A stretch of DNA of 64,000 nucleotides from Rufibacter glacialis (lineage in GTDB: Bacteria > Bacteroidota > Bacteroidia > Cytophagales > Hymenobacteraceae): positions 620,001 through 684,000 of the forward strand of contig NZ_VKKZ01000020.1 in the NCBI RefSeq assembly GCF_008271745.1, given 5' to 3'. The translations under genes were made by a program, and so were the position numbers. Under the pieces are notes generated by a model. That model was not told where the DNA came from and searched no databases. It was given only the letters and a program-made list of their open reading frames with translations. Positions 49,896-60,127 of this stretch are shown here, in pieces (within the stretch, counting starts at the first letter, position 1; every line of letters begins with the position of its first letter).

Positions 49896-52532
49896 ATGGC
49901 AGATTCTATAAAGGCACTTATTGAAAAATACAAGAAATATCTAGAAGAAAACCAGTTAGCAGACGAGGTATATAAGTGGAAGCTGGTAAATCAATTCAAA
50001 GGTTGTCCAAATTTAGATGCTCCAGATTTCTATAATGAAATCAAGAATATTAAATACGGTAATCTCATCTATCCCGTCGGCTTAGCGGTTGTTTATCATC
50101 TGGCTAAAGAAAGACCTGAACAGTACCGTCAATGCTTTAGGATTTTATTCAATGAGAGTTTACCCCTGGAGCATCGCATAAAACATTTCAATTCAGAAAC
50201 GCTCAAACTTTACCGAGAGTTAGTTCCTGAAGAAAAGTATGCCCACCACCAAGACGAAAGAACCATGGCCACTTTTCTGGCATTTTACAATCCAGACAAG
50301 TACCCTTTCTATAAAGATTCTTTCTACCAGAAATACTGTAAGCTAATAGGTCAAAAGGCAAAGCCAAAGGGCGAAAAGTATATTCATTATATGCAACTGG
50401 TGGATGACTTTATAAAGAATCATATAAAACCAAGTAATGAACTATTAACTACTGTAGCTAACCTTCTACCCAATGATGCTTACCCTGACAAACAATACTT
50501 AATATTAGCGCAAGATATCCTCTATAGAATGTTAGACAAGGGACTAGAAGAAATAGAGATTGGAGACGCCAGTGTTTTTAAAATTTCCATGGGGAAATTT
50601 AGCCTTGGTGATATCCAGTCTTGCATTGACCAAAAAAAGGTTCTTGTACATCAAGACACTGCCGCTAAGGCAACTTCCATTGAAACCCAAGGTCAGATGT
50701 TTAAAAATAGAATGCAAATAGGAGACTACTTCTATCTGACACATGGCAACAACGATAATCCTATTAAGCTTTTGGGAAGAGTAACAGGGGATGCTGTTTT
50801 AACTCCTATAAATAATTTAGGAGAAGAAGGATGGCTGGAAAGAGAGTTTGAGGTAATAACATTTTCCAAAAATAAGTCTAAGTACAAAGGACCTTCTAAA
50901 TGGTGGACCCCCAGTGACAATAGCACTTGTATTATCATTAAAAAAATTGAATTAGAAGACGCAAACAAGTTAATATTTGAGCCATACTTTTTAATCAAAC
51001 TAACAACTGAAGCTGAGGATGATAAAAAGGTCGGACCTGAACCTTTACCAGAGAAAGATAGAGCAAAAGATTATAACTCAAAGCACCCTTTAAACCAAGT
51101 ATTGTATGGACCTCCCGGCACCGGCAAGACTTACAACACTATTAACAAAGCTTTAGAAGTTTGTGGGTTTGCAATAGAAGGAAAAGCGCGAGAAGAGCTT
51201 AAAATTGAATTTGACAGAAGGGTAGCTACCGGCCAAATAGTGTTTACTACCTTTCACCAGAGCATGAGCTATGAAGATTTCATTGAGGGTATAAAACCTG
51301 AAACCTTAGATGGTAACGTCACCTATACGGTAAAGCCCGGTATTTTTAAAGAAGTCTGCAATGCTGCCAAAACTCCTAACCAAGTAGATTTCACAAAAGC
51401 TTATGAAAGCTTGGTGAAAGACTTAGCTGAAAAAGAGGGCCAATTATTAGAACTAAAAACACATACTGGAAAACCTTTCTCTGTTTCTTTAAACTCAAAT
51501 GGCAACCTTTCTTTGCATACAGGACCTTCAAAGGAAAAGCAAGGAGTACTTACGAAGGAGAACATTCAAAAGCAGATAAACGGAGAACCAAAGTTTATTG
51601 GTTGGGAAGGTTACTTCAACGGCATTATCAACCATTTGAAGGTAAATTATAATTATAGTTATGCCGTCACTAAGTCCTCTCAGAACTTCGTCCTGATCAT
51701 TGACGAAATAAACCGCGGAAACGTATCCCAAATTTTTGGTGAACTCATCACTCTCATTGAAGAAGACAAGCGCTTAGAAAAAAAAGAGGCCCTTATGGTA
51801 ACTTTACCATATAGCAAAGAGAAGTTTGGGGTACCAGCTAACCTACATATAATTGGCACAATGAATACTGCTGATAGGAGTGTAGAAGCATTAGACACAG
51901 CTTTAAGGAGGCGCTTTAGCTTCATAGAGATGCCTCCTCAGGAAGAGCTTTTAGATTCCCACCGAATGTTATGGCGGCTATGGGAGAAGCATGCAGATTC
52001 AGAATGGAATGATCCTCTCTGGATACAGCAAGAGAGAAACCTGCTACAGTTGCTGGACGGACACATTTTAGATAAACAAGCCTATATAGGGCTTGAAGCA
52101 CTTCCGCACGAAGAAGTTAAAGACAAAAATGTGTTTAAGGATATAGTAGAGTTTAAAGGAATCAATCTAAAATCTCTTCTTAAGACTATTAACCAACGAA
52201 TTCAAAAGTTATTAGATAAAGACCACCTTATTGGGCACAGCTACTTTATCAATGTAAACAGTTTGCATGATCTAAAAGTCGTTTTCCAGAATAAAATCAT
52301 ACCTCTGTTACAGGAATACTTCTTTGGCGACTACGGTAAAATTGGTTTGGTTCTAGGTGAAGGATTTGTAAAAAAAGCACCAGAAAGCGGCCATGAGATC
52401 TTCGCCAAGTTTGGTGAATATGATGCAGACGGATTGGCTGAGCGTGAGGTGTATAATTTGGTGAATGTGCTGAATGAAGAGCAAATGCCAGAGGAACAAT
52501 TCAAAGCAGCCATAGATACTTTAATGCGGTAA
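49896..52532 (+). CDS. mcrB: McrB-like AAA+ GTPase of a type IV restriction system
   Basis: An 878-residue modification-dependent restriction motor. The N-terminal 230 residues are helical and unassigned. Residues about 235-365 form an EVE/PUA-like reader (IQSCIDQKKVLVHQDTAAKA, then IGDYFYLTHGNNDNPIKLLG), the kind of module that recognises modified bases. The AAA+ domain begins near 395 with Walker A YGPPGTGKT (405-412 core), then IDEINRGNVSQIFGELITLI, the McrB signature, and GTMNTADRSVEALDTALRRR. McrB uses GTP to translocate DNA and needs McrC for cleavage. The partner gene begins 3 bases after its stop. Confidence 0.93.
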   Translation: MADSIKALIEKYKKYLEENQLADEVYKWKLVNQFKGCPNLDAPDFYNEIKNIKYGNLIYPVGLAVVYHLAKERPEQYRQCFRILFNESLPLEHRIKHFNSETLKLYRELVPEEKYAHHQDERTMATFLAFYNPDKYPFYKDSFYQKYCKLIGQKAKPKGEKYIHYMQLVDDFIKNHIKPSNELLTTVANLLPNDAYPDKQYLILAQDILYRMLDKGLEEIEIGDASVFKISMGKFSLGDIQSCIDQKKVLVHQDTAAKATSIETQGQMFKNRMQIGDYFYLTHGNNDNPIKLLGRVTGDAVLTPINNLGEEGWLEREFEVITFSKNKSKYKGPSKWWTPSDNSTCIIIKKIELEDANKLIFEPYFLIKLTTEAEDDKKVGPEPLPEKDRAKDYNSKHPLNQVLYGPPGTGKTYNTINKALEVCGFAIEGKAREELKIEFDRRVATGQIVFTTFHQSMSYEDFIEGIKPETLDGNVTYTVKPGIFKEVCNAAKTPNQVDFTKAYESLVKDLAEKEGQLLELKTHTGKPFSVSLNSNGNLSLHTGPSKEKQGVLTKENIQKQINGEPKFIGWEGYFNGIINHLKVNYNYSYAVTKSSQNFVLIIDEINRGNVSQIFGELITLIEEDKRLEKKEALMVTLPYSKEKFGVPANLHIIGTMNTADRSVEALDTALRRRFSFIEMPPQEELLDSHRMLWRLWEKHADSEWNDPLWIQQERNLLQLLDGHILDKQAYIGLEALPHEEVKDKNVFKDIVEFKGINLKSLLKTINQRIQKLLDKDHLIGHSYFINVNSLHDLKVVFQNKIIPLLQEYFFGDYGKIGLVLGEGFVKKAPESGHEIFAKFGEYDADGLAEREVYNLVNVLNEEQMPEEQFKAAIDTLMR

Positions 52533-52535
52533 GCA

Positions 52536-53840
52536 GTGGGAAAGGAGAAGAAACATTTTACCGTTTTTGAGCATCAGTGCCTTTGGGACCACAAAGGAAA
52601 TGAGCGTCTGTCAACACCACAATTAGAGGCGTTGCAGGCTTTCCATGGAGAGAAAGGAGTTCCGTTTTATTCATTGATTCACAAGGGCGTGCGGTTCAAT
52701 GAATTTGTAGGGGTACTACAGGTGGGAAACCTCACCATAGAAGTACTCCCCAAAGCTGATAAAACAGATGATAAAGCCCACTGGCAGAAAATGCTTATTG
52801 GTATGTTGAAAGCAGTTGGGATATTTGATATCCATGCTCCTAGCAACAGTAACCTCAAATTGAAAGCCAATTCTATTTTAGATTTATACTTTGAGCTATT
52901 CATTCAGGAGGTAGAATACCTCATGCACCGCGGATTGGTGAAGAGATACCGCAAAACAGAGGGTAACACAACGGCTTTGAAGGGAAGCCTCCAGTTTGCC
53001 CAGCACATACAGAAAAACCAGGTGCACCAGGAGCGGTTCTATGTACGCCACAGCATCTATGATGTCCAACACCCCTTGCACAGGATTCTGTACAAAGTAA
53101 TTATACTGCTTAGTCGCATAAACACGAGCGCATATTTACAAAGTAGAATAGGAGCCCTACTGCTCAACTTTCCTGAACAGGAAGAGATTCAAGTAACAGA
53201 GACAACATTTCATAAAATTAGCTTCAACCGCAAAACGGAGCCTTATCAAAATGCTATTGAGATTGCTCGCCTGCTACTGATGAACTACCACCCAGACGTA
53301 GCCAAAGGTAAAAACCACGTGCTAGCCCTCATGTTTGATATGAACTTACTCTGGGAACACTTTGTGATAGTCACTTTGCGTAAATACTTCCGGAAAGAAC
53401 AATCTTCGTTCAGCGTAACTGCTCAAACCACAAAATATTTTTGGAAGCCTCAGGATGGCTATAGGACTAAAATCATACCTGATATTCTCATTAAATTTAA
53501 TAGTAAAAATTTTGCAGTGCTAGATACCAAGTGGAAGAACTTGAACGGCTATAATCCATCGGCAGAAGACCTCAGGCAATTATTTGTTTATCACGAATAT
53601 TTTCAAGCTCAAAAAGTTGCTTTAGTTTACCCTGGTAATAATTTAAGCAAAACTAGTGGTCTTTACCTTCATCCAAGTCATGGAGCTGAAACAGACAAAG
53701 AATGTTCAGTCTTGACTTTAAGTGTGGGAAATTCTATCAAGGATTGGCAAACATTTATCGGAAAGGAGTTAGAAGAATGGTTGATGCACACACAAGAAAG
53801 AACATTACCTAAACTTCTAACTCCAACTGTTAGCAAGTAA
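52536..53840 (+). CDS. mcrC: McrC family nuclease
   Basis: The cutting partner of McrB, 434 residues. The N-terminal beta-rich domain (FNEFVGVLQVGNLTIEVLPK) contacts the McrB ring and stimulates its hydrolysis. The C-terminal PD-(D/E)XK nuclease shows IIPDILIKFNSKNFAVLDTK, with Asp, Asp and Lys in place. The start is GTG 52536, 3 bases after the mcrB stop; no earlier ATG is in frame. With mcrB it forms a complete McrBC-type module that would restrict modified foreign DNA and must tolerate the host's own type I methylation. Confidence 0.93.
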   Translation: MGKEKKHFTVFEHQCLWDHKGNERLSTPQLEALQAFHGEKGVPFYSLIHKGVRFNEFVGVLQVGNLTIEVLPKADKTDDKAHWQKMLIGMLKAVGIFDIHAPSNSNLKLKANSILDLYFELFIQEVEYLMHRGLVKRYRKTEGNTTALKGSLQFAQHIQKNQVHQERFYVRHSIYDVQHPLHRILYKVIILLSRINTSAYLQSRIGALLLNFPEQEEIQVTETTFHKISFNRKTEPYQNAIEIARLLLMNYHPDVAKGKNHVLALMFDMNLLWEHFVIVTLRKYFRKEQSSFSVTAQTTKYFWKPQDGYRTKIIPDILIKFNSKNFAVLDTKWKNLNGYNPSAEDLRQLFVYHEYFQAQKVALVYPGNNLSKTSGLYLHPSHGAETDKECSVLTLSVGNSIKDWQTFIGKELEEWLMHTQERTLPKLLTPTVSK

Positions 53841-54437: not shown

Positions 54438-55376
54438 TTAATTTGAAGGTTCATCAATTCTTCTGAGATAATCAATAAGACAAGGCGGCGTGATTGCGAA
54501 ACCACTTAGAAGAGTTAGATATGGCTCATTAAATGGCATAGTACTAGCATATGCTTTACTACAAATTGTCTTGGCTTTATTTCCAATTAACTCATTTAAT
54601 CTTTTCAGAAAACTTATTAAAAACCTTAATTCAAATTTTCCTCGAAAAACTTTAGATTTATCAACGTATTTATATTGCTCTACCTTTTTCAAGAAAACCT
54701 CTTCTTTAACATCTTCATTATTATCGAATAATGCTTTTAAAGACAGAAAATTATTAAACTCCGTAAAATCTTTTACATCTTCAACATTTACGTGTACTAT
54801 ATCATCGAAAAGTTTTTTTGTTTTCTTTTCAATAAACAATCGCTTATTAACTACTCCTTGATTTCTTAAATCCGCATAACAAGATAACCAAGAATTTAAA
54901 AACAAAACTTTATCATGAAATTTATCAATAGTATTCAAATAAAGCTGTAAACAAATTTCCATATCATTTGAATCTCTTGGAATCTTAAAGCGGCTTTTTA
55001 ATATTGACTTAAATGATTCAACATCTGAATAAAAATTCTCTATACTATAACATGGTGTTATATAAATATCTGGATTATTTATATAACAGTCAAAATCTTG
55101 ATCGATAAAATAAGCTGTAGTTGCATTTGCATATACAGGCTTATCCTTTATTAAACTATATGCTTTAAGCAAATAATCTTTCCCACCACAATTAAAATCA
55201 AGTATTATTTTTTGCTTAGCATGACTATGTATACGAGCTCTATAATAATCATAATCGTCATCGCCCTCAAAAAAGCAATACATAGATTCAGTGGAATTCT
55301 TATTAAAAGATTCAGCGAATTCAGCATAAGCTACAACACCGCTAACAGACTCTTCTCTTAATTCATCAATTAACAT
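54438..55376 (-). CDS. DUF4435 TOPRIM-like protein (AriB-like effector candidate)
   Basis: A 312-residue DUF4435 protein. The TOPRIM-like core can be read as Glu38 in CFFEGDDDYDYY, Asp92/Asp94 in FIDQDFD and the family motif ITPCYSIENFY with Glu113. The rest is helical and lysine-rich. In the PARIS antiphage system the DUF4435 protein AriB is the nuclease set free by its ATPase partner AriA; here too an ABC-type ATPase gene lies directly upstream, 2 bases away. The two-gene likeness is clear, but protein identity to AriA/AriB has not been tested. It is the last gene of a five-gene unit and very AT-rich. No terminator is seen. Confidence 0.8.
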   Translation of the reverse strand: MLIDELREESVSGVVAYAEFAESFNKNSTESMYCFFEGDDDYDYYRARIHSHAKQKIILDFNCGGKDYLLKAYSLIKDKPVYANATTAYFIDQDFDCYINNPDIYITPCYSIENFYSDVESFKSILKSRFKIPRDSNDMEICLQLYLNTIDKFHDKVLFLNSWLSCYADLRNQGVVNKRLFIEKKTKKLFDDIVHVNVEDVKDFTEFNNFLSLKALFDNNEDVKEEVFLKKVEQYKYVDKSKVFRGKFELRFLISFLKRLNELIGNKAKTICSKAYASTMPFNEPYLTLLSGFAITPPCLIDYLRRIDEPSN

Positions 55377-55378
55377 TA

Positions 55379-56350
55379 CTAGTCTATATAAACATTCATT
55401 CCAATAGCATACTTATCCAACTCATTCTTAAACACAAATGGTGAATGAGTCACTGCAAATAAAAAGGAACATTTCTTTGAGTTCACAATGTCTACAAGAA
55501 GCTTTTTTTGCCATAGCATTGATAGGGAAAGCTCAGGCTCATCAAACAAAACTATCAAATCATCTTGTCTAGATAAAAATATCTTAGTAAAGATATATAC
55601 AATTTGCTTTTCACCAGAAGACAACTGTCGTAGACTCACTTCTTCCTTTGTCTTTTTATTTCTTACTTCTAGATCAATTCTATTTTTATTAATGTAAAAC
55701 TCAGTTGTTACCAAATATTGATTACAAACATTTATAAAATGCTCCATTAATGAAATAGATGCTTTTGAATCAGCAAACATCCTCTCAACATCCTCCATGT
55801 TTAATTTTATAATTGTATCCTTGAGAATGCTCATCCTTTCAATCAAAGCTTCAAAATCTTCATTATGAGTTCCTTTCTTCCTTTTCCTTGCTTTAACCTC
55901 ACTATTGATAATAGTGTGAAGACCTAATCCGAAAGTCTCCATTTGATTTTCAATATTTCTATTAACAGGGAAATAGACTATTTTATGAGATATATTCTCT
56001 AGAATCTCTTCAAACAAAATAAACTTATGGATATATTCTCCTAATGATGCAAATTGTTCATGACTATGAGTCGATTTTAAAAAGCCTTTTTTAACAATTA
56101 AATAATTCTCTAAATCACTGTGGGAAAACTCTATAATTTGATCATTAATATAAAGCTCAATAAAATCAAAACCTATATCCTCTAATATATGCCAACGCAT
56201 GGTAAGTGTATAATACAATGCGTTTAAAACAGTTGTTTTACCTAAGCCATTCTCACCAACCAAAATTTTAATTGATTCATCAAAGACTATATCAAAATCT
56301 TGATAATAATGCAGCCCTAATATTCTAAATCTTTTAATTTCCAAATTCAT
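55379..56350 (-). CDS. ABC-type ATPase (AAA_15/AAA_21, AriA-like candidate)
   Basis: A 323-residue SMC/OLD-like ATPase. Walker A is VGENGLGKTT (32-39 core), the ABC signature LRQLSSGEKQIV, Walker B LIVLFDEPELSLS and the switch His in FAVTHSPFVF. The coiled-coil insert between the two halves is short. ATPases of this type act as sensor or scaffold in several defence systems, including PARIS, retron-associated and Gabija-like loci. It overlaps the QueC-like gene by 17 bases and is followed after 2 bases by the DUF4435 gene. It should bind ATP as a dimer or higher oligomer and hold the DUF4435 protein in check; that role is inferred from PARIS. Confidence 0.82.
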   Translation of the reverse strand: MNLEIKRFRILGLHYYQDFDIVFDESIKILVGENGLGKTTVLNALYYTLTMRWHILEDIGFDFIELYINDQIIEFSHSDLENYLIVKKGFLKSTHSHEQFASLGEYIHKFILFEEILENISHKIVYFPVNRNIENQMETFGLGLHTIINSEVKARKRKKGTHNEDFEALIERMSILKDTIIKLNMEDVERMFADSKASISLMEHFINVCNQYLVTTEFYINKNRIDLEVRNKKTKEEVSLRQLSSGEKQIVYIFTKIFLSRQDDLIVLFDEPELSLSMLWQKKLLVDIVNSKKCSFLFAVTHSPFVFKNELDKYAIGMNVYID

Positions 56351-56960
56351 TATTATCTATTACTGAATTTCTAAGTCTACTCAAGACCTTCAAGTATTTA
56401 TAACACCCATTACACTCCCCGCATGGATAATTTCCTGTATGACAGGAATGTGCCCAATATAAAATTGATTCTGGAACTTTTGATGACTTTACTAATTGTG
56501 AGGAGCTTAAGTTTGCAGCTGGAGCAATAATCTGAATATTTCCTTCTTGCATTGAAATAAGGTCATTTATTCTTTTGATAAATTTTTTTGTTCCATCTAT
56601 ATGGGATTTATCAGATTTAACAGACCCTATAATCAATGCTTCAACTCCATTATGGACTGCCTCCATACTTGCTAAAGTTATAAGAAGTTGATTTCTAAAA
56701 GGCCACCATTCCGGCACAGGAGCAAATGACAATTTCTTTTGGTCAATTGACATTTCTCCACTCCCTAAGACACTACAGTCAATATCTAAAACTTTATGTT
56801 CTATAGATAACTCTTTTGCTACTTGACTGCTAGCGTCAATTTCTGCTATAGCACTCTTTTGGCCATAATTGATTGTTATCGCCAGTTCAATTTCTCTGCT
56901 GAACCAATAAGCTAATGCAATTGAGTCTATTCCACCAGATAAAAGAATTGCTTTCTTCAT
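56334..56960 (-). CDS. QueC-like 7-deazaguanine enzyme of a defence cassette
   Basis: A 208-residue homologue of QueC, which turns 7-carboxy-7-deazaguanine into preQ0 using ATP. The PP-loop SGGIDS (8-13) and the zinc cluster Cys173, Cys180, Cys183 and Cys186 (CHTGNYPCGECNGC) are intact, and PFRNQLLITLASMEA matches the QueC core. The substrate-side loop, YPDC in QueC, is HIDGTKKF here, so the reaction is probably different. No queD, queE or queF lies nearby, so it is not a normal queuosine gene. QueC-like proteins occur in Qat and type IV CBASS defence systems, where I recall reports of deazaguanine being attached to the N-terminal Gly of a partner. It overlaps its upstream neighbour by 1 base (TAATG). 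Confidence 0.85.
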   Translation of the reverse strand: MKKAILLSGGIDSIALAYWFSREIELAITINYGQKSAIAEIDASSQVAKELSIEHKVLDIDCSVLGSGEMSIDQKKLSFAPVPEWWPFRNQLLITLASMEAVHNGVEALIIGSVKSDKSHIDGTKKFIKRINDLISMQEGNIQIIAPAANLSSSQLVKSSKVPESILYWAHSCHTGNYPCGECNGCYKYLKVLSRLRNSVIDNNEFGN

Positions 56961-58159
56961 TATTTATTTGATTCCCAAACCGCTTTATAAATTACAGTTG
57001 AGAAATCTTTCTCAATTATACAGTTAGTCCCTTCCAGCATAGTCATAGATTCTTGCATACCACTTTCTAGAAATCCAACGACTGGTTTACCAATTGCTCT
57101 CCCATATCCTACTTCAAATAAAGTTCCTGAATCTAATCCATCAAGTATAGCTACAATTACATCACAAGAATTCAATGCCTCTATATCTAAATGCACAACT
57201 TCTTCGGCGGCGCCAACTCCTACATCATGGTATGGAGAAAACACTTTTAACCCAATCTTCAAAAGTGAGTCTCGAAATTGGTTAATTAACCAACGCTGGG
57301 ACATTGTAAAAAAAGGACCTGCTAAATAAACTTTTTTAGGTTCACTAGAAGTTCTGTAAAATGATTTGAATGAATTTAAGCTTAGGTCAGCTGGAATAGG
57401 TAAAGTACTACTGTTTGCATAATAAGCCGTAGCTATAGAAGCAATATTAGCAGCTTCTTCAATTGGAAGTAATTCCATTAGCCATTTAGAGGCAAAAATG
57501 CTACTAAAAATATCACCAGTACCTATTGGCCAAACAGAGTCGGTTTGATATGAAGGTATTACAACATCCTCTTTATCAGGTTGTATTATCAACGCTCCAT
57601 CAGAACCTTTCTTGATTATAACAGCACTAGCTTTTTCTTCTACAAAGAAATATCTTTTAATCTCAGACAATTTAGAAGAATTTGAAATACTTCTTACTTC
57701 TTGTTCATTCGCAACCCATATTAGATTGTTAGCACTTGAACCATTCTTCCAAAACGTACTAGGGCTATAAGGGGATTGAGGATCATAAACAACCCTATCG
57801 CCTATAACTTTGGTTTCTCCTTCAATAGTACCAAAGAGTAAAACATTATCACCTTTAACAGCTATAATAGGGCTATCCTTTTCAGGAGGTATTGGAAAAA
57901 CTTCCGGGTGTGATAATGGATGGTAATATGTAAAACTACTTGTCTGATCAATCACTTTAGGGTAAAGAGATACATTTAGGGCAGAACAAATTACCTCTAA
58001 ATTTTCTAAAGTAGATTTATCTATGAACGTGTGATAGTTAATATTTAAACCCTTTTCAGATAATGCATGCACAGCCCTTAGTCCCGAGCCGTAGAGCTCA
58101 CTCCAATGTGGCTCTATACAGTATTCAAAATATGTTCCTCCTATAATATTAAGAACCAT
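56960..58159 (-). CDS. PfkB kinase - nucleoside 2-deoxyribosyltransferase fusion
   Basis: A 399-residue two-domain enzyme. Residues 1-265 are a PfkB/ribokinase-type domain: GGT near the start, a nucleotide-binding part (VANEQEVR, IIKKGSDGAL) and the catalytic GTGD (213-216), with Asp216 as base. Residues about 275-395 are a nucleoside 2-deoxyribosyltransferase domain: VYLAGPFFT (277-285), then LDSGTLFEVGYGRAIGKPV with the expected catalytic Glu349. It could phosphorylate a nucleoside and exchange or remove its base, so it may make or free the base used by the QueC-like enzyme, or act as a nucleotide-depleting effector. Its ATG follows the stop of the small MGGGG gene without a gap. Confidence 0.82.
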   Translation of the reverse strand: MVLNIIGGTYFEYCIEPHWSELYGSGLRAVHALSEKGLNINYHTFIDKSTLENLEVICSALNVSLYPKVIDQTSSFTYYHPLSHPEVFPIPPEKDSPIIAVKGDNVLLFGTIEGETKVIGDRVVYDPQSPYSPSTFWKNGSSANNLIWVANEQEVRSISNSSKLSEIKRYFFVEEKASAVIIKKGSDGALIIQPDKEDVVIPSYQTDSVWPIGTGDIFSSIFASKWLMELLPIEEAANIASIATAYYANSSTLPIPADLSLNSFKSFYRTSSEPKKVYLAGPFFTMSQRWLINQFRDSLLKIGLKVFSPYHDVGVGAAEEVVHLDIEALNSCDVIVAILDGLDSGTLFEVGYGRAIGKPVVGFLESGMQESMTMLEGTNCIIEKDFSTVIYKAVWESNK

Positions 58160-58477
58160 CTAAGCATGTTTGATTTTAAGCGAACACTTACCTCCTTCTA
58201 CACTTCTAACAATTGCTATATAATCATGACCTTGATTCATACAATCAATTATTTTTTTTAAATCAGCATTAATTATGGCACCTACTTCTTGCTCTCTATG
58301 AAAGACTAAACATGGGCCTGTAGGTGAAGACAAAGACAATTCCAGAATATCGTCCTTATTTACATTTATTAATACTGCCGCTTTTGGTGAAGATAGTTGA
58401 GTATGGATAACTAAGTTTTCACAGCTCATTTCACTGACTTTTCCAGCTCCTCTTGGTGGTCTTCCTCCTCCTCCCAT
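58160..58477 (-). CDS. Small protein with N-terminal MGGGG, first gene of the QueC cassette
   Basis: A 105-residue protein of unknown family. It starts MGGGGRPPRGAGKV, so removal of Met would expose Gly followed by a flexible Gly/Pro/Arg tail. The rest is a compact beta-rich domain (ENLVIHTQLSSPKAAVLINV, CLVFHREQEVGAIINADL, ending GGKCSLKIKHA). The frame extends to 58567, but those 30 residues are hydrophobic, AT-rich and unlike a gene start; ATG 58477 is chosen. The stop codon abuts the next ATG. Small partners with an exposed N-terminal Gly are the reported targets of QueC-like enzymes in other systems, so this may be the modified protein; that is an inference. Confidence 0.72.
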   Translation of the reverse strand: MGGGGRPPRGAGKVSEMSCENLVIHTQLSSPKAAVLINVNKDDILELSLSSPTGPCLVFHREQEVGAIINADLKKIIDCMNQGHDYIAIVRSVEGGKCSLKIKHA

Positions 58478-58698
58478 ATAATATATTATTTTACAAATGA
58501 TTGATAACAAGTAAATTCTCTTGCAAAGCAATACTTCTCTTAGTATTTGAGACATCAAATTTTGCAATTAGAATTTTGTAGTAAACTTAATAATACAACA
58601 TTATTACAAAAACATAGATTAGATTTTAGAATAATTTTCAAACTTTCTCCACCTGCGCAAAAAGACTGCGCAGGAGCCCCTCACTAACCACTACCACG
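58478..58698. other. Divergent gap upstream of the cassette
   Basis: A 220-base, very AT-rich stretch between the start of the cassette and the start of the TROVE remnant. It must hold the cassette promoter, but no full TAnnTTTG box at a good distance is visible. A short GC-rich inverted repeat, CTGCGCA...TGCGCAG, lies near 58653-58672. Confidence 0.4.
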
Positions 58699-59830
58699 AT
58701 GCGATTTAAATTCTTAAGACCGAAAGCAGAGATAACGAGATACGCACCCAGAGCCACGAGGGCGCGTTGGCTTGAAACTGGTAGCAAAGCCCGAGCTGTA
58801 CGCGGCAGCCGTCACGGCCTCTTTGCAAGACGGCTTCTACCAAACCGCTAACGCGCGGCTGGAGCAGTTGCAGACGCTGGTGGCTTAGAACGAGCCGGAG
58901 TTTGTGGCCAAGCTAGCCGTGTACAACCACATACACCTGCGCAGCGTGTCCATGGTGCTGTTGGTGGATTATGGCGCTCACCCACCGCGGCGACAGCCTG
59001 GTGAGCCGCGCGTTGGTTCAGACCCTGCAACGCGCCAATGAGATCACGGAGCTGCTGGCTTACTACCAGTTCCAGAATGGACTCCAAGGCACCAATAAAC
59101 TGCATAGGCTCTCAAAGCAGTTGCTGCGGGGTGTGCCCCTGGCCTTCAACCACATTGACGCTAACCAGTTCGCCAAGTACAACCGCGCCGCCGAAGTCAA
59201 ACTCCGCGATGCCCTGTTCCTGGCGCACCCAAAGGCTAAAGACGCACAGCAGCAACGGGCCTTTGACCAAATTGCCACCCGACTCGCTGCCCACGCCCTA
59301 CACTTGGGGAACGGAGTTGTCGGCGTTGGGGCAGCAGCGCTTCCGGGATGGCTACTAGCGGAAACTGGCGTTCCGACACAATTGGGAAAAGCTCATTAAC
59401 AGCCATTGGCTGAGCTACATAGCCCTGCTACGCAACCTGCGTAAAATTCTGGAAATTAACGTGTCTTCGACGCACCTCAGGAATGTATGCCAGACCCTGT
59501 ACGACCCAAAGGCGGAGCAGAAGGTAAGCCTTCTGCTATACATCTTTCTCTTAACCTAACGCTAGGTGAAGGAATTATTCTCACCAGATGCGCCACGTGT
59601 GCTCACGCACTTGTAGAGGCCGTGCAACACAGCATACGGCATCTGTTCGGTTTCTCAGATAGCAGCTGGTAGTGGCGGCTGAGACGTGTCAGGCTCCATA
59701 CAAAAGCCTGTGTCAGCGCGCAGCAAGGTGCTGCTCTATGACATTGACCTGCTCTTGGGCATGTTGCTGGGTAAAGCGAGGCAGTAGACCAAAGGCTGTA
59801 ATGGAGTACAGCGAAACTGGATATTAGCTG
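58699..59830 (+). pseudogene. Decayed TROVE-domain (Ro60/Rsr-like) gene
   Basis: Pieces of a Ro60-like RNA-binding protein follow in the right order but in changing frames: MRFKFLRPKAEI, then PELYAAAVTASLQDGFYQTA, an in-frame stop, NEPEFVAKLAVYN, GDSLVSRALVQTLQRANEIT, LLAYYQFQNG, NKLHRLSKQL, QFAKYNRAAEVKLRDALFL, then frameshift to PYTWGTELSALGQQRF, LLRNLRKILEINVS, LVEAVQHSIRHLFGFS and KVLLYDIDLLLGMLLGK. The TROVE ring and part of the vWA domain are thus recognisable, with several frameshifts and stops. Bacterial Ro60 proteins bind Y-RNA and help RNA turnover, often next to rtcB. The longest open piece (58971-59399) is not a gene in itself. GC content is like the chromosome and unlike the neighbouring cassette. 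Confidence 0.85.
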
Positions 59831-59984
59831 CACCTACCGCTACAACTGCTTGAACCTTGGTAAGGAGCAAAGACAGCTCCACTATTATAAAAACTCAGGT
59901 AGTGCTCCTTGGCATTATTTTGAAAAGAACGTCAAGGAACATTTAGCTTCCTCACCATTGATGGCGAAACTCAAAAAGAGATTT

Positions 59985-60043: not shown

Positions 60044-60052
60044 GATTATCAG

Positions 60053-60098
60053 GTGGGCCCACTTGGAATCGAACCAAGCACCTACTGATTATGAGTCA
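60053..60098. repeat. Right attachment site within tRNA-Met
   Basis: The 46-bp repeat partner of 31589-31634. It covers the tRNA from its 3' end through the T-arm and variable loop into the anticodon stem. Confidence 0.9.
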
Positions 60099-60127
60099 GT
60101 TGCTCTAACCGAATGAGCTATAGGCCC
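60054..60127 (-). tRNA. tRNA-Met (anticodon CAT)
   Basis: A 74-base cloverleaf on the minus strand. The acceptor stem GGGCCTA pairs with TGGGCCC, the D-stem GCTC with GAGC, the anticodon stem ACTGA with TCAGT around the loop CTCATAA (anticodon CAT), and the T-stem CTTGG with CCAAG around TTCGATT; the discriminator is A. It is most likely the elongator tRNA-Met; a lysidine-modified tRNA-Ile cannot be wholly excluded. CCA is not encoded. It is the integration target of the island, whose insertion has rebuilt its 3' half. Confidence 0.93.

Follow-up and report, generated by a model that had tools for sequence, protein, structure and literature searches.

The window analysed here is a stretch of 64,000 nucleotides of Rufibacter glacialis (contig NZ_VKKZ01000020.1, positions 620,001 to 684,000). 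Its minus strand was found to contain an operon with the genes of a small protein, a fusion of a PfkB-type kinase with a nucleoside 2-deoxyribosyltransferase (NDT), a QueC-like enzyme, an AriA-like ATPase and a DUF4435/AriB-like protein, in this order. The features were as follows, in coordinates of the window.

58160..58477, minus strand: small tail protein of 105 aa, with a predicted disordered MGGGG tail (about residues 1-17) and a HIRAN-type domain (residues 18-105); proposed nucleobase acceptor.
58469..58477, minus strand: start codon and N-terminal Met-Gly-Gly, in which Gly3 is the conserved residue of the family.
56960..58159, minus strand: PfkB-type kinase fused to NDT (PfkB-NDT), 399 aa.
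56334..56960, minus strand: QueC-like ATP-dependent ligase, 208 aa, with SGGxDS, YGQx5E, RN, HxDG (for YPDC) and CHx5CxxCxGCxK motifs.
55379..56350, minus strand: AriA-like ABC/AAA ATPase, proposed effector regulator; best PADLOC model AriA (1.1e-29), followed by many PtuA models.
54438..55376, minus strand: DUF4435/AriB-like protein, proposed effector nuclease; PF14491 at 3.1e-35 and the AriB model at 4.7e-31.

The open reading frame (ORF) of the small protein starts with the ATG at 58477 and encodes a sequence beginning MGGGGRPPRGAGKVSEMSCENL. Its stop ends at 58160, followed immediately by the ATG of the fusion at 58159. A preliminary description of this DNA had placed the ORF just before the QueC-like gene; the ORF was found as described, but the fusion lies between the two. 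The reading frame stays open upstream to a TTG at 58567, whereas the closest relative (L039, 45% identical, from a Bacteroidetes metagenome-assembled genome) contains an ATG as its sole possible start, giving MGGSSS. The sole start of L039 speaks for MGGGG as the N-terminus of the window protein, though unproven there, and translation from 58567 was set aside on account of this relative, which is unable to start upstream. A Gly-first tail is common to both proteins.

Loci for comparison were gathered by the PfkB-NDT fusion from plasmids, genomes and viral contigs, and the fusion is universal in the set by construction because the loci were found with it. The fusion matched 41 plasmid records (37 covering at least 80% of the query), the genome loci came from a sample of the window's phylum and from the best 80 of at least 322 relatives, and among the viral-contig loci L119-L125 were full length; L006 and L007 were covered for 1.5 kb downstream only. 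A homologue of the small protein was found upstream of the fusion, usually adjacent, in 98 of 100 loci, the exceptions being L103 and L107 of Thermoplasmata, which contained a larger protein in its place. A QueC-like gene was found nearby by profile in 94 of these 98 loci. Two of the remaining four (L084 and L101) stop at a contig end, and the other two (L050 and L073) contain a PurA-like gene. Counted from the QueC side, a PF00294-PF05014 neighbour is present in about 89% of the neighbourhoods of Cluster 4 of QueC-like proteins (Libby et al. 2026, PMC13329287).

Small-protein loci were found in Bacteroidota, Pseudomonadota, Verrucomicrobiota, Actinomycetota, a cyanobacterium, haloarchaea and others. 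Of 296 sampled genomes from the phylum of the window, 28 were found to match the fusion query, with a full-length match (by coverage) in its own genome and five others. The fusion was present in 7 of 398 genomes of a Pseudomonadota sample, the centre genome included, and in an Actinomycetota sample of 296 genomes only in the centre genome. One pseudomonadal locus, L215, contained neither a small protein nor a QueC-like gene within the 4 kb covered. No relative was found in viral contigs scanned with the small protein alone, and a search of the R. glacialis genome with the small protein returned a single match.

The N-terminus was compared in 40 loci with a single ATG, GTG or TTG ahead of the domain, in which the motif plays no part in the choice of the start. 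These were found to contain 29 MSG, 7 MGG, 2 MTG, 1 MIG and 1 MWQ starts, the last belonging to L117, whose frame contains an N. M[S/G/T]G was present in 38 of the 40 and Gly at position 3 in 39; among the 88 well-filled columns of the domain, two reach 100% and the median is 33%. In the same loci, M[SGTA]G was found at the first ATG in 30 of 1531 ORFs of at least 200 aa, and the M[SGT]G start of the small proteins exceeds chance.

The 93 tails of the wider set were selected as M[SGTA]G, which fixes Gly at position 3. Translation was taken from the first codon that gives M[SGTA]G, even where further in-frame starts lay upstream, and five of the 98 loci lacked such a start and were left out (L086, L073, L117, L084 and L050). 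Position 2 contained Ser in 77 tails, Gly in 11, Thr in 3 and Ala in 2. The conserved residue is Gly3 and not Gly2, because position 2 is mostly Ser in the homologues. The Gly start of the preliminary description was thus upheld in that the N-terminus is conserved like the best columns of the core, but a conserved N-terminal Gly in the literal sense was ruled out, and homologues without one, which the same description had named as refuting, form the majority. The amine of Ser serves equally well as nucleophile. Across 75 aligned small proteins, also selected as M[SGTA]G, the residues M1, G3, C19, G66 and C79 were found to be invariant. Residues 4-12 of the tail are low-complexity Gly/Ser of variable length. 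Two Cys, C19 and C79, are thus present in 75 of 75.

The AlphaFold2 model of the small protein (69 sequences) was found to have a mean predicted local distance difference test score of 86.5, with residues 1-20 at about 58-65. Its folded part matched lp_0118 with Z 12.7. Matches to the HLTF HIRAN domain, both without and with bound DNA, reached Z 9.2-9.7 with a root-mean-square deviation of 2.3-2.6 over 83-85 residues. The model thus gives the small protein a disordered tail followed by a HIRAN-type domain. No Pfam HIRAN match by sequence was found for it, and its family profile gave nothing convincing against the sequences of the PDB. The HIRAN fold elsewhere binds DNA 3' ends, and the modelled domain probably acts as the sensor body. 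The unstructured Gly terminus proposed earlier agrees with the poorly ordered tail of the model, but most homologues would expose Ser after removal of Met. In haloarchaea, one small protein (L036, 7363-7998) of 211 aa was found to contain two tandem HIRAN-type domain matches behind a single MGGGG tail.

The QueC-like enzyme of the window was found to contain HIDG in the substrate loop where canonical QueC has YPDC, and the altered loop of the preliminary description was confirmed in 59 aligned homologues, in which the Asp is invariant and His replaces the Tyr of YPDC in at least 90%. The second Ser of SGGxDS, the YG of YGQ, the next Glu, the Arg-Asn pair and four zinc-type Cys were also found to be invariant, and the ATP, RN, Zn and base-edge Asp motifs are retained in the family. 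With HxDG for YPDC and a TIGR00364 score of 86.5 bits against the curated cut-off of 150.3, the enzyme falls outside canonical QueC (preQ0 synthase), which catalyses two ATP-dependent steps, from carboxylate to amide and from amide to nitrile (PMC13329287). Against the PDB, the family profile matched Cap9 best (9nto, 8.2e-23), followed by the QueC entries 2pg3 and 3bl5. The Tyr and Asp equivalent to those of YPDC hold the base in Cap9, and both are Thr in QatC (Gao et al. 2026, PMC13279940). The CHx5CxxCxGCxK and SGGxDS motifs, the YGQ motif (YGQ(x)6E in Libby et al., YGQ(x)5E here) and the PF00294-PF05014 neighbour fit Cluster 4, the assignment being made by these features; Libby et al. 2026 (PMC13329287) assigned this cluster to purine salvage.

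In the fusion, D216 (GxGD) and E349 (DxGTxxE), which we take to be catalytic residues, were found to be invariant among 13 aligned relatives. In two loci, L050 (11112-12386) and L073 (11188-12369, assigned by clustering with L050), the fusion is followed by a PurA-like enzyme of the adenylosuccinate-synthase family in place of QueC, which may be a second, different base-amine ligase for the same kind of acceptor.

Candidate genes for supply of the base were found near the module in a few relatives. QueE-cluster genes were present within the examined stretch of 4 of 101 loci, all actinobacterial; the QueE of L118 was confirmed by a family scan, and L116 contained the small protein, fusion, QueC-like, QueD-type and QueE genes in this order. 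Besides FolE, the window genome was found to contain an adjoining QueD-type gene, another PTPS and a homologue of QueE, all three of which score under the NCBI cut-offs. Its one strong PF06508 match is the QueC-like enzyme of the operon (102 bits), followed by a match of 26 bits, by eye an argininosuccinate synthase, and two weaker ones. Among 19 genomes (its own and 18 relatives), a QueE match was found in 18 and a PF06508 match at E<=1e-15 in the window genome alone.

The same kind of tail was found on unrelated partners. The CD-NTase (PF18144) beside the QueC-like gene in L103 (1811-2767) starts MSGGGGG, and a start at MGGGTP is possible for a related protein in L107. In L037, L226 and L227, which are Rhizobiaceae plasmids, the QueC-like gene is directly followed by that of a TIR protein beginning MGGGSSG or MGGGGGG. 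The published tails are MGGS on the CD-NTase and MGTS on QatB, and a G2D change is reported to block defence. With these two included, four unrelated folds beside QueC-type enzymes carry the same kind of exposed tail, and this recurrence, as a comparison of sequences, offers the strongest argument for conjugation. The earlier suggestion of a dedicated small protein beside a QueC homologue is strengthened by it, as well as by Cap9 being the closest solved relative of that homologue.

The loci L103 and L107, in which a PfkB-NDT and a QueC-like gene accompany a CD-NTase with an MSGGGGG tail (L103) or a possible MGGG tail (L107) and two more genes after it, are read as a CBASS (cyclic-oligonucleotide-based antiphage signalling system) variant with PfkB-NDT. 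The TIR of L037 (11890-12357), L226 and L227 is of ThsB type with an MGGG tail and is accompanied by OGG-like, PfkB-NDT and further TIR genes; these loci may represent a distinct TIR system with a tagged tail.

The gene that follows QueC in most relatives was found to contain no Pfam match and matched SagB TIGR03605 at 3.4e-12, under its cut-off. Its profile matched CyaGox (2.5e-19), BmdC (8.8e-13), nitroreductases (from 1.9e-11) and, weakly, McbC (6e-4) in the PDB. CyaGox, BmdC and McbC oxidise azolines to azoles, and the known azoline oxidases act on peptide or nonribosomal peptide synthetase azolines. These SagB-type enzymes are its closest solved relatives, although plain nitroreductases also match the profile, more weakly than CyaGox.

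Among loci whose position 2 is Ser/Thr, 64 of 80 contained this oxidase, against 0 of 13 among those with Gly/Ala (Fisher 2.6e-8); two of the 16 Ser/Thr loci without it lie at contig ends. In an enlarged set of 104 rows, from which two contig-end loci (L101 and L049, also left out of the tree tests) were omitted, it was found in 73 of 90 Ser/Thr loci and 0 of 14 Gly/Ala loci. All nine newly added oxidase-positive loci contained Ser/Thr, L219 reading MSSG. A general rule that Ser at position 2 implies the oxidase was dropped in view of the 17 Ser/Thr loci without it, and only the converse holds; near the Ser-first CD-NTase of L103 no oxidase gene was recognised. In the loci counted, the oxidase occurs only with Ser/Thr and never with Gly/Ala, as would be expected if it acted on an oxazoline, which Gly or Ala cannot close. 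The count of 73 Ser/Thr among 73 oxidase-positive loci leaves out L086 and L117, which are oxidase-positive with unreadable tail starts. Among L210-L227, the count covers all but L215, L221 (Cys), L223 (start unclear), L226 and L227 (TIR type). For L069, L092 and L095, the ATG whose ribosome site was judged the better was chosen manually as the start; an upstream ATG would make L069 MGGES and thereby an oxidase-positive Gly locus, and the alternative starts of L092 and L095 give MGG (oxidase-negative) and MAG from a GTG (oxidase-positive), respectively.

The association was also followed on the tree. The sister pair L088 and L057 (Shimodaira-Hasegawa-like approximate likelihood ratio test 100) was found to contain MGGC without the oxidase and MSGM with it, respectively. 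A Pagel-type likelihood test favoured the dependent model (likelihood ratio 20.7, p 3.7e-4). It uses one rate regime and a flat root prior, the dependent fit had several of its rates at their bounds, and inflated values are possible with tests of this type. Independent-pairs sign tests, which are underpowered, gave about 3 pairs in the same direction, 0 in the opposite direction and 2-3 equal. As a control, single columns of the QueC-like enzyme were also found to split by the oxidase, the best at 2.5e-9, and values of <=3e-5 were reached in twelve residue/column tests. Strong raw p-values thus arise from relatedness alone, and the oxidase rule is therefore based on the tree-aware test, on the sister pair and on there being no exceptions. 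The pattern suggests oxazole formation in most members of the family. The window protein is of the Gly type, and the oxidase gene is absent from the window. A haloarchaeal small protein (L221) was found to start MCGGG, with no oxidase found nearby, and its Cys2 could yield a thiazoline-type cap.

From gene order, conservation, fold, motifs and co-occurrence, we consider it probable that the small protein is N-terminally conjugated by the QueC-like enzyme with a 7-deazaguanine carboxylate, that the PfkB-NDT fusion handles the attached base, that the HIRAN-type domain senses and that the effector is swappable. Conjugation is favoured because the tail is conserved, disordered and recurrent on unrelated partners and because the QueC-like enzyme is closest to Cap9. 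The small protein would be the dedicated acceptor of an N-terminal nucleobase conjugation. After removal of Met, its disordered tail (G-G-G-G-R in the window, S-G-S-G- in most relatives) would enter the active site of the QueC-like enzyme. The carboxylate, most likely 7-carboxy-7-deazaguanine (CDG) from the FolE, QueD and QueE of the host, would there be ATP-activated and coupled to the amine of the N-terminus, as in the reaction of Cap9 with the CD-NTases of type IV CBASS. The fusion would then bind the base or add (deoxy)ribose and subsequently phosphate, for which a dGTPase could supply the deoxynucleoside donor. It would be the counterpart of the TGT-like Cap10, which binds the tagged tail (Wassarman et al., PMC11996544). 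Detection would license an exchangeable effector, the AriA/AriB-like pair in the window and other genes elsewhere.

In relatives with Ser/Thr, the side-chain oxygen would attack the ATP-activated amide to form an oxazoline, and the CyaGox-like enzyme would aromatise it to an oxazole; the window protein, Gly-first without oxidase, would stop at the amide. The family in this way points to chemistry beyond the known amide. A more far-reaching reading, which we put forward tentatively and would not expect to hold in full, is that of a third deazaguanylation immune module in which a HIRAN-type sensor is tagged; its majority form would be a 7-deazaguanine-oxazole cap, with PfkB-NDT maybe building a protein-linked nucleotide, and the window would be a simpler Gly type with a PARIS-like effector (PARIS, phage anti-restriction-induced system). 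The conjugation idea of the preliminary description was likely right in kind and wrong on the Gly-first tail and on the ATPase as reader of the mark. Clusters of the window ATPase and of the DUF4435 protein were found in 2 of 101 loci (the window and L039), other, more distant ATPases in some loci being unscored; the ATPase was dropped as a general reader, and the PfkB-NDT fusion is the better candidate partner.

Several points weigh against conjugation with 7-deazaguanine. Position 2 is Ser in most homologues, unlike the published MGGS and MGTS tails, and the constancy of the fusion across loci follows from the way in which they were gathered. Among the four loci with QueE-cluster genes only that of L118 was family-scanned, and that of L109 lies about 6 kb off and may be unrelated. 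L050 keeps the small protein and the fusion with the PurA-like enzyme for QueC, its tail starting MKGKPD, and L073 contains the same replacement yet retains a GGGG stretch. In the QueC-like loop, His replaces the Tyr with which Cap9 stacks on the base, and another base or acyl group is thus possible. Conjugation of the tail with a base or acid other than 7-deazaguanine is nevertheless judged unlikely: the His replacement speaks for it, as does QatC, in which both recognition residues are changed and the reaction is unresolved in the published account (PMC13279940), but the base-edge Asp is invariant, QueE-cluster genes (in L116 QueD too) accompany the module in some Actinomycetota, and the window host has a QueE homologue and no second strong QueC.

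A role of the QueC-like enzyme and the fusion in purine or deazapurine salvage, with the small protein as an unmodified regulator or chaperone, would agree with the proposal of Libby et al. (PMC13329287) for Cluster 4, with the intact kinase and NDT signatures of the fusion and with the dGTPase genes near 13 of 101 loci. It leaves unexplained the near-invariant start, the CD-NTase and TIR tails and a dedicated HIRAN-type protein in 98 of 100 loci, and we regard it as quite unlikely. The low-complexity, length-variable Gly/Ser of residues 4-12 is what a mere flexible linker, conserved for composition and not for its exact N-terminus, would contain; as Gly3 keeps its place relative to the start codon in 39 of 40 single-start loci, in contrast to the drifting positions after it, and as the tail recurs on unrelated folds beside QueC-like genes, this explanation appears highly improbable.

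Conjugation of the small protein would set the operon beside two known systems. In type IV CBASS (PMC11996544), too, a QueC-like ligase stands next to a partner whose exposed N-terminus is rich in Gly; the window contains a ligase of Cap9 kind, with ATP, RN and Zn motifs, and in L103 a CD-NTase accompanies a QueC-like gene and a PfkB-NDT of the same type. In contrast, the partner in the window is of HIRAN type, PfkB-NDT is present and the substrate loop is HxDG, and no SMODS/CD-NTase Pfam match was found at E<=1 among the five operon proteins. Type IV CBASS loci carry OGG-like glycosylases, and those near many relatives of the module recall them. Qat (Gao et al. 2026, PMC13279940) shares a QueC-domain enzyme and a partner with a conserved disordered tail (QatB, MGTS), but QatC contains N- and C-terminal extensions and a Thr/Thr base site, and QatB is helical. 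The median length of QatC is about 400 aa (Libby et al., PMC13329287), against 208 aa for the QueC-like protein of the window. No match to the KAP ATPase QatA or the TatD nuclease QatD was found among the operon proteins or in a neighbouring McrBC pair. The main text of Libby et al. (PMC13329287) contains no occurrence of small protein, HIRAN, nitroreductase or glycosylase, and no description of the small protein or of the oxidase link was found among the open-access papers listed, subscription papers and most preprints being outside this scope.

The neighbour genes were clustered over 101 loci, with cluster names taken from one representative each, and were found to include an OGG-type glycosylase in 76, the oxidoreductase after QueC in 63 and a Dam-type methylase in 32. 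Three loci with a second copy of the fusion (L074, L092 and L119) share two further genes after it. In L074, where a second small protein accompanies the second copy, these two genes encode a protein with an FRG domain and a predicted nuclease of pPIWI-associated type, which may form an effector pair. In the window, the two downstream genes scored best with the AriA and AriB models, and an AriA-type ATPase beside a DUF4435 AriB is the gene pair of PARIS, here forming the final two genes of a QueC/HIRAN operon. PARIS is triggered by phage anti-restriction proteins and cleaves tRNA. No match of the DUF4435 protein was found in the PDB by phmmer.

The operon is flanked by the McrBC pair (49896-53840) on one side and a tRNA-Met (60052-60127) on the other, and the GC content of this stretch is 0.30-0.41 across 50-58 kb against 0.52-0.59 from 59 kb onward. 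This low-GC setting beside McrBC and a tRNA was counted in favour of the explanation preferred here. The gap between the operon and the tRNA-Met (58640-59950) contained no convincing gene; it is of higher GC and by eye resembles decayed coding sequence.

Conjugation of a nucleobase to a protein has been demonstrated for one immune system in the published accounts cited here, with a second system proposed to use it. If the reading favoured here is true, the family would be a third, taxonomically wide system of this kind, and a gene cluster which the 2026 literature files under purine salvage would be recast. It would also name an acceptor protein which the main text of the QueC-centred survey does not mention, and the rule relating Ser/Thr to the oxidase yields a chemical prediction of amide, oxazoline or oxazole. 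The conserved tail beside a base-conjugating enzyme family, as read from the sequences, points to a so far unrecognised antiviral module of bacteria, with a base-tagged protein at its core.
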